NCBI GenBank assembly: GCA_022650895.1
Contig: JALCQC010000006.1
Coordinates: 1-64,000, forward strand
Reading direction: 5' to 3'
Length of the DNA stretch: 64,000 nucleotides
Origin: Bifidobacteriaceae bacterium
Lineage (GTDB): Bacteria > Actinomycetota > Actinomycetes > Actinomycetales > Bifidobacteriaceae
A model generated the notes under the pieces. It was not told where the DNA came from. It did no database searches and worked only from the letters and a program-made list of their open reading frames with translations. Position numbers and translations under genes: made by a program. Positions 28,051 to 29,562 of this stretch are shown here, one piece after another; the stretch's first letter is position 1; each line of letters opens with the position of its first letter.

Positions 28051-28149
28051 ACATAATATTGTGCGGCGTCAGTCCGACAAGCAGGGCGTGAAAAATCATG
28101 CCATGCCGATGTTCTCGCACAACTTGCTGAGAGGTGGCAGAATGTAAAG

Positions 28150-28842
28150 GTGGCAAAAAAGACGAGCATGAGCGCGAAACGCGAAGAGTTCCAGCGCCTT
28201 GCCGTACCTACACTCGACATGTTGTACCGCCAGGCCATGAAATACACGAACAATCCTGAGGATGCGCAGGACCTGGTGCAGGACACCTTCGAGCGCGGTT
28301 TCAAAGCTTTCTCTTCCTTCAAGAGAGGGACCAACATCGAGGCGTGGCTGACCACTATTCTGCGCAATGCGTACTTCAACCAGTACCAGAAGTCCAAGCG
28401 CAGGCCTCGTCGCGCCAATGACTCCACTGGAGAATACGACGACTGGGACATCTATGAGGCTTCGGCACACCAGTCCGAGGGGCTTCGTTCCGCCGAGGAT
28501 GAGTATCTTGACGCCTACGCTCCCGACGAGATCATGCATGCGCTTAACAATCTTTCGCCTGAACGCCGTCAGGTTTTCATCGACGCCGCCATCGACGGGA
28601 AAAGCTATCAGCAGGTGGCGGACGAGCAGGGAATCAAGATCGGAACGGTGATGAGCCGTCTCAACCGCGCACGCACCCAGCTGAAAAACGAGCTTGAACA
28701 GTACGCCAAGGATCGCGGCTATGTGGAGGAGACACCGGCGGAGGACTCGAAGCCGACCGCCGCCGCCAGCACTACCGGAGAACAGCCCAAGCGCAAGAGA
28801 GCAAGACAAGCGCAGAAAAGCAAGAGCGGGCTTACAGCATAA
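28150..28842 (+). CDS. sigH: ECF RNA polymerase sigma factor, SigH/SigR (ECF12-like)
   Basis: Region 2 MLYRQAMKYTNNPEDAQDLVQDTFERGFKAFSSFKRGTNIEAWLTTILRNAYFNQYQK and region 4 LSPERRQVFIDAAIDGKSYQQVADEQGIKIGTVMSRLNRARTQL; GTG start. Confidence 0.9.
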   Translation: MAKKTSMSAKREEFQRLAVPTLDMLYRQAMKYTNNPEDAQDLVQDTFERGFKAFSSFKRGTNIEAWLTTILRNAYFNQYQKSKRRPRRANDSTGEYDDWDIYEASAHQSEGLRSAEDEYLDAYAPDEIMHALNNLSPERRQVFIDAAIDGKSYQQVADEQGIKIGTVMSRLNRARTQLKNELEQYAKDRGYVEETPAEDSKPTAAASTTGEQPKRKRARQAQKSKSGLTA

Positions 28843-28975
28843 ATTATCTTCACAGTGAAATACACGTCCGCCCGCGGGTGATAATAAAGACATGAGAAAA
28901 GGGGTTCTCTTCCGTACAGTGCGTTGAATCAGGTGCGGATCCCATTGAGTGCAGTTGTCGAAGGAGTTGATTGTG

Positions 28976-29383
28976 ATGAGGATTGAGTCCTCCACCACCG
29001 AAATGATGGTGAGCCGCGATGGAGTCGTGGAACGCCACGAGGAAATCGTGACCATGACGAGCTCTCCGTGTTACGACCTCGAGCGTATGGATGATTTCGA
29101 CGATCTCTACCAATGTGGTCTGGCACGGGCACAACGCCTGGGACAGATGGATGCCTTCACCGAGCGGTTCAATGCAGAGACCTGCTGCGATGCCCGTGAA
29201 AAGGCCATGATCGAGGCGCTGAAACAATATCTGCGTCCTCAGCAGGCTCCTGCGACTCTTTTGGGGCGTGTTCTCCATTGTCTCGACCGTCTTTGCGACG
29301 AGGAAGACGTAGAGGATGATTCAGCAGCAACCCCAACGTCAGTTTCCACGCACCGTCCGGAGCAGCGGCGTCTGACTGCATAG
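28976..29383 (+). CDS. putative divergent RsrA-like anti-sigma factor
   Basis: Next gene after sigH on the same strand; AAGGAG RBS; FTERFNAETCCDAREKAMIEALKQYLRP aligns by eye with the RsrA zinc-helix region but lacks a canonical HX3CX2C. Confidence 0.6.
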   Translation: MRIESSTTEMMVSRDGVVERHEEIVTMTSSPCYDLERMDDFDDLYQCGLARAQRLGQMDAFTERFNAETCCDAREKAMIEALKQYLRPQQAPATLLGRVLHCLDRLCDEEDVEDDSAATPTSVSTHRPEQRRLTA

Positions 29384-29520: not shown

Positions 29521-29562
29521 ATAAGGAACCCCCCGAAGCTTTAGCTTCGGGGGGTTCCTTAT
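29521..29562. terminator. bidirectional terminator between convergent genes
   Basis: Perfect 20-bp inverted repeat ATAAGGAACCCCCCGAAGCT-TT-AGCTTCGGGGGGTTCCTTAT. Confidence 0.85.

Follow-up and report, generated by a model that had tools for sequence, protein, structure and literature searches.

RsrA of Streptomyces coelicolor is a textbook zinc-thiol redox switch, and its gene, like that of RshA in Mycobacterium and Corynebacterium (model TIGR03988), lies directly after the gene of a SigR/SigH-type ECF sigma factor. Helix I of other ASDs touches sigma4, and RskA and RseA, which are class I ASDs without a zinc motif, are membrane proteins of other ECF groups. In case of RsrA, the sigma factor is contacted by Leu50, Ala53, Val54 and Leu57 of helix III and by Val75 and Leu79 of helix IV, double alanine mutants at contact positions lower the affinity more than 100-fold, and Cys11 at the N-terminus is required for redox release (PMC4960319). 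ASD groups that mix zinc and non-zinc members have been described (PMC7406223). In C. glutamicum, sigH is under the control of housekeeping promoters and heat-stress genes belong to the SigH regulon (PMC3489674). In B. longum, the sigma-E BL1357 and its putative anti-sigma factor BL1358 are cited in heat and bile responses, in passages that contain no zinc, RsrA, promoter or regulon analysis (PMC10059941).

The window, i.e. the whole analysed stretch of 64,000 nucleotides from a Bifidobacteriaceae bacterium, contains a gene pair of this arrangement:

28150 to 28842, plus strand: SigH/SigR-type ECF sigma factor of 230 aa with a GTG start (TIGR02947, Sigma70_r2, Sigma70_r4_2)
28960 to 28966, plus strand: Shine-Dalgarno-like GAAGGAG of the 135-aa ORF, read in the sequence nine bases 5' of the ATG
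28976 to 29383, plus strand: candidate zinc-less RsrA-lineage anti-sigma factor of 135 aa (ORF, Shine-Dalgarno-like site, orthologues, hhalign)

We consider it likely that the product of 28976-29383 is the anti-sigma factor belonging to SigH, that this factor descends from RsrA/RshA and is zinc-free but keeps the face of helices III and IV, that the pair is not autoregulated, and that SigH promoters lie at rpoD, rbpA, dnaK and clpB. The best model for the sigma protein is TIGR02947 (SigH_actino; E 1.8e-55, 187.6 bits; runner-up 2.4e-29), and the curated cut-off of this model (251.55 bits) is reached by the sigma proteins of none of the 151 Bifidobacteriaceae genomes, including that of the window. 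After a gap of 133 nt behind the sigma stop, the 135-aa ORF begins with the ATG at 28976, its stop ends at 29383, and it is a real coding gene. In comparison with a congener, it differs at codon positions 1/2/3 in 39/25/83 cases (134 codons), which is the pattern expected for a protein under selection. The protein has no obvious membrane segment, and Pfam and NCBIfam gave no meaningful match and no anti-sigma model for it or its orthologues; an Rfam search near the locus found no element, and a phage search no match. About 140 nt 3' of the anti-sigma gene, a strong GC-rich hairpin at 29521-29562 resembles a terminator on the minus strand and precedes an aldose-epimerase-like gene on that strand.

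With a profile built from 28 orthologues, the anti-sigma gene was found in 127 of the 151 Bifidobacteriaceae genomes, sigH was detected in 131, and none of the 151 has the anti-sigma gene without sigH. The sigma gene lies immediately 5' in all 30 first loci and adjoins the anti-sigma gene in 61/62 named loci, the remaining one having a short flank, so that the position directly after a SigH/SigR-type gene, which the sequence-only reading had described for the window, is syntenic throughout the family. In many named loci, stop and start overlap by 4 nt (ATGA-type) or are separated by near-zero spacing. These named loci, which come from Bifidobacterium, Alloscardovia, Galliscardovia and Bifidobacterium metagenome bins, were obtained by an alignment-based scan of genome contigs, and searching the taxonomic family of the window yields these contigs as well; an initial protein-based scan had given no orthologue. 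Canonical RsrA (TIGR03988, cut-off 62.5 bits) is above cut-off in none of the 151 Bifidobacteriaceae genomes, while 49 of the 54 order genomes outside the family pass it, and in the 30 order-relative loci read, canonical RsrA always directly follows the sigma gene. Weak TIGR03988 matches in genus g2 were considered as a second zinc anti-sigma factor, but by eye the ORFs at these places resemble OsmC, and these matches are therefore taken as chance. In some Bifidobacteriaceae of 1.5-1.7 Mb that belong to genus g14, sigH is internally stopped or has no match, and the anti-sigma gene is also without a match. This pattern, with in-frame sigma stops in G140, G142 and G128 and with G106, G112, G171 and G179 also listed, represents an apparent joint loss of the pair.

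A weak homology to the C-terminal half of RsrA is supported by profile comparison. The hhalign comparison of the 28 orthologues with 30 canonical RsrA sequences of the order gave P 2.1e-4 over 37 columns, and with 58 distinct core sequences P was 8.9e-5 at a score of 26.5, the best of 300 column shuffles reaching 23.8; across runs, P ranged from 8.9e-5 to 7.4e-4, with 30-37 columns and a probability of 46-60%. The matched stretch extends from helix III to helix IV, with EKAMIEALKQYLRPQQAPATLLGRVLHCLDRL against DQALKALIRRSC-EAAPDELRTRVLTRIT:

29192 to 29302, plus strand: helices III and IV, candidate sigma-binding half, residues 73-109 (hhalign; hydrophobic conservation)

The counterparts of the RsrA contact residues are M78, A81, L82, Y85, V99 and L103, and in the 58 core sequences five of the six contact-aligned columns are hydrophobic in 100%, compared to 72% for the remaining column (permutation p 0.0005). 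As the helices are amphipathic, such hydrophobic conservation shows a preserved face, not binding. Invariant among the core sequences are E, LRP, AP and L, of which the LRP and AP positions doubled as search anchor. The protein thus resembles RsrA and RshA in its C-terminal half (the AP..L...L region), in its hydrophobic sigma-contact positions and in being small and soluble, but its loop between helices III and IV is shorter (RPQQAP versus RxSCxxExAP of RsrA). One genus g3 genome (L018:1492-1926) has a long acidic insertion in the LRP-xx-AP loop between these helices.

At its other end, the protein carries an addition that is foreign to RsrA and RshA:

28979 to 29062, plus strand: N-terminal predicted beta-hairpin, residues 2-29 (AlphaFold2)

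AlphaFold2 places its strands at residues 2-14 and 17-29, with pLDDT 73-85 for the block. The segment is T-rich, and a similar-looking segment is found C-terminally in L013 and in the canonical RsrA relative L051. In the monomer model, which has low confidence (pTM 0.33), helices 44-54, 67-70, 73-86 and 93-109 follow in the expected order. A natural in-frame read-through of sigma and anti-sigma at locus L007, with stops read as Gly, stood in for the complex, and its model was of low confidence and gave no clear complex (pTM 0.31). Foldseek of the low-confidence monomer model against the PDB gave no match, and the family profile, run against the sequences of solved structures, retrieved insignificant matches only.

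The transcription of the pair appears to differ from that of RsrA and RshA systems. Of 26 order relatives, 25 carry a GGAAT/C-N18-GTT motif 5' of sigH (shuffles 2%), and no SigR-type promoter was found at a comparable position upstream of sigH in the Bifidobacteriaceae loci; by this comparison, the SigR-type autoregulatory promoter has been lost from the sigH operon of the family. A SigH-type promoter of the anti-sigma gene itself, in the style of C. glutamicum, was considered and rejected, as such motifs occur before this gene in 3/120 loci, below the 8 of shuffled sequences. What is found instead is a -10-like element immediately at the sigma start:

28138 to 28143, plus strand: CAGAAT, -10-like element 6 nt 5' of the sigma GTG (same arrangement across the family)

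Such an element lies 4-8 nt before a sigH start codon in 50/60 family loci and 58/61 named loci, two sets that have genomes in common, and this placement suggests a leaderless sigH transcript from a housekeeping-type promoter. In this suggested mode of sigH transcription, and in the heat-stress genes of its predicted regulon, the system resembles SigH-RshA of C. glutamicum, where rshA however has its own SigH-dependent promoter and encodes a canonical RshA, neither of which is seen in the window pair.

As for that regulon, the motif GGGAATN17-19GTT gives 36 to 73 matches per genome and is too noisy, and a version with a nine-base -35 element was used. This motif, GGGAATAAT-N14-16-GTT, occurs at 30 places in 14/16 family genomes, about 23 of them directly 5' of rpoD, rbpA, dnaK or clpB. 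In the window genome, perfect or one-mismatch copies of GGGAATAAT-N15-GTT precede rpoD, rbpA and dnaK (promoter entries L138, L148 and L259):

G000:C6:88638-88664: SigH-type promoter GGGAATAA(T)-N-GTT upstream of rpoD
C17:6018-6044: SigH-type promoter GGGAATAA(T)-N-GTT upstream of rbpA
C20:40569-40595: SigH-type promoter GGGAATAA(T)-N-GTT upstream of dnaK

The other eight one-mismatch copies in this genome are mostly chance by appearance, and clpB is preceded by a SigH-type promoter in the relatives L152 and L157. It seems that the SigH promoter code is alive in Bifidobacteriaceae, and the motif set represents its predicted regulon. The classic SigR target trxB has a SigR-type promoter in 7/8 order relatives versus 2/14 family genomes (entries L159-L185), in one of these two far upstream, and seems to be mostly gone from this regulon. 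With SigH-type promoters at rpoD, rbpA, dnaK and clpB, the circuit appears to serve heat and protein quality rather than disulphide stress. In Streptomyces, rbpA is a SigR target (PMC9205884).

The part of the protein in which RsrA carries its zinc site contains two further features:

29102 to 29137, plus strand: candidate helix I (DLYQCGLARAQR; alignment, sigma tree; match to RsrA helix I by eye only)
29165 to 29188, plus strand: degenerate zinc-motif position R-F-N-A-E-T-C-C, residues 64-71 (column counts, 58 core sequences)

Both lie outside the hhalign match, their alignment is a by-eye extension of it, and statements about them are thus inferred with support from position. In this alignment, R64 stands at RsrA His37, E68 at Cys41 and C71 at Cys44, and a counterpart of Cys11 is not visible by eye in the 135-aa protein. 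In the 58 core sequences, the Cys41 column is mostly Glu, Asp or Ser. An Hx3Cx2C motif was found in 0/93 distinct Bifidobacteriaceae anti-sigma ORFs, and judged from these ORFs the degeneration of the zinc site is family-wide rather than particular to the window genome. The sequence-only reading had quoted this segment as a degenerate zinc site, and the segment is indeed present. Its alignment of the protein with RsrA holds as profile homology, although the statistical match lies in the C-terminal half and the zinc motif is aligned by eye. The six cysteines that it had noted at other positions are residues 32, 47, 70, 71, 102 and 107; both congeners keep five of them (C70 is Ser in one), but a conservation of all six in orthologues is not found, C71 alone being common across the family (51/58).

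The window genus and deeper lineages have helix I, which is absent in most Bifidobacterium, in Alloscardovia and in Galliscardovia. In the sigma tree, the Bifidobacteriaceae sequences form one group, within which Bifidobacterium, Alloscardovia and Galliscardovia are grouped (support 100/98), and the lineages with helix I, including the window genus, fall outside this supported group, which argues that the zinc site was lost first and helix I later. Since a long branch separates the sigma factors of the family from those of the order, the tree is uncertain in its depth.

Could the protein still be a thiol or metal redox sensor that uses re-arranged cysteines in place of HxxxCxxC? We regard this as unlikely, albeit as an idea with several points in its favour. 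The re-arranged sets would be CxxxxxCC with two C-terminal cysteines in most Bifidobacterium, which have a cysteine set different from that of the window protein (CFDPxxCCD ... APxCL ... LDxC), and, for the window genus, CC, C102 and C107. Cysteines are indeed frequent in the 58 core sequences, with 40 at the His37 column (otherwise Arg, Gly or others), 46 and 51 at the two positions of the CC pair, the latter being the Cys44 column, 40 at the AP-x-C position and 32 at a C-terminal position, and RshA of M. tuberculosis has been reported to favour an Fe-S cluster over zinc (PMC3427169). The cysteine set, however, varies across the family, seven of the 58 core sequences have no cysteine in the motif at all, and the first cysteine is missing in the window genus. 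In genus g13, the CFDPxxCCD/APxCL/LDxC cysteines are all absent, and hence no cysteine is family-wide. The missing counterpart of the N-terminal Cys11 and the position of trxB mostly outside the predicted regulon further speak against a redox sensor.

It had also been suggested that sensing was lost for want of mycothiol. Mycothiol genes are indeed missing, as mshC and mshA are above cut-off in 0/61 family genomes, compared to 28/38 (mshC) and 21/38 (mshA) order relatives. Seven order relatives without an mshC match over the cut-off (among them G062, G068, G078, G079, G086 and G094) nevertheless keep canonical RsrA over its cut-off, and mycothiol loss was thus rejected as a sufficient cause: missing mycothiol alone does not explain the loss of the zinc site.

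If both the sensor and the autoregulation were lost, the protein might be a vestigial or repurposed remnant that no longer inhibits SigH, whose activity would then be set by its own expression or stability. The fast divergence of the protein, which has 25-40% identity between the window genus and other genera, and the disappearance of helix I in Bifidobacterium would fit to this, but the gene is retained in 127 genomes, each of which has sigH, the two genes often overlap, the substitutions are biased to third positions, and E, LRP, AP and L remained invariant, and we therefore judge such a remnant to be improbable. Still less probable is that an unrelated small protein replaced RsrA at the same place and resembles it by convergence or chance, as could be thought from the missing family-model match and from a profile match that is both weak and short, since the shuffle test, the same gene position and the preserved sigma-contact pattern argue against it.

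We thus return to the cognate anti-sigma factor of RsrA/RshA descent. Points against it are the weak homology over few columns, the lack of a match to any anti-sigma model, the low-confidence structure models and the absence of helix I in most Bifidobacterium. Mechanistically, the 135-aa protein would hold SigH by hydrophobic side chains on helices III and IV, i.e. by the face that RsrA uses, and would grip it without a zinc site. The zinc loss and the Cys11-Cys41/44 trigger disulfide of RsrA would not be usable for release, as judged from a partly by-eye alignment: with the counterparts of Cys11, His37 and Cys41 missing, an RsrA-type release would be excluded. The pair stands outside the SigH-type promoters, sigH carrying a conserved -10 element of housekeeping-like type next to its start codon, and SigH would still use the GGGAATAAT-N15-GTT promoters of rpoD, rbpA and dnaK (window genome) and of clpB (relatives). 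Our guess is that heat or unfolded proteins may bring about release by causing the anti-sigma factor to be lost or degraded. The protein probably acts in the manner of a class I anti-sigma factor, yet it lacks the zinc motif of ZAS proteins and, as everywhere in the family, stays below the TIGR03988 cut-off. If it inhibits, it would do so without a zinc motif like RskA or RseA, from which it differs by having no obvious membrane segment and by its SigH/ECF12-type position.

What was known before? ASDs without zinc have been described for other ECF groups (PMC7406223), and an anti-sigma factor beside an ECF sigma factor has been postulated in B. longum. BL1357/BL1358, an ECF sigma factor with a putative anti-sigma factor from the same family as the window pair, may be its counterparts. 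As far as the searched literature shows, the descent from RsrA, the loss throughout the family, the lost autoregulation and the predicted regulon are new.

It is quite possible, although we propose it tentatively, that an ancestor of the Bifidobacteriaceae turned the SigR-RsrA disulphide-stress switch into a proteostasis switch free of metal and of autoregulation. In such a conversion, the zinc sensor and the feedback promoter would have been dropped and trxB would have left the regulon, the face that binds sigma would have been kept together with the promoter code of rpoD, rbpA, dnaK and clpB, and a new release signal would have been adopted. According to a survey of 2022, the targets of the bifidobacterial RpoE, an ECF sigma factor, still need to be found (PMC9004370), and the conserved motif before rpoD, rbpA, dnaK and clpB makes this question directly testable. 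If a whole family of gut bacteria retains the sigma/anti-sigma pair but not the switch, a sigma-binding face can evidently outlive its sensor, and the Bifidobacteriaceae pair would give natural material for separating sigma binding from sensing.
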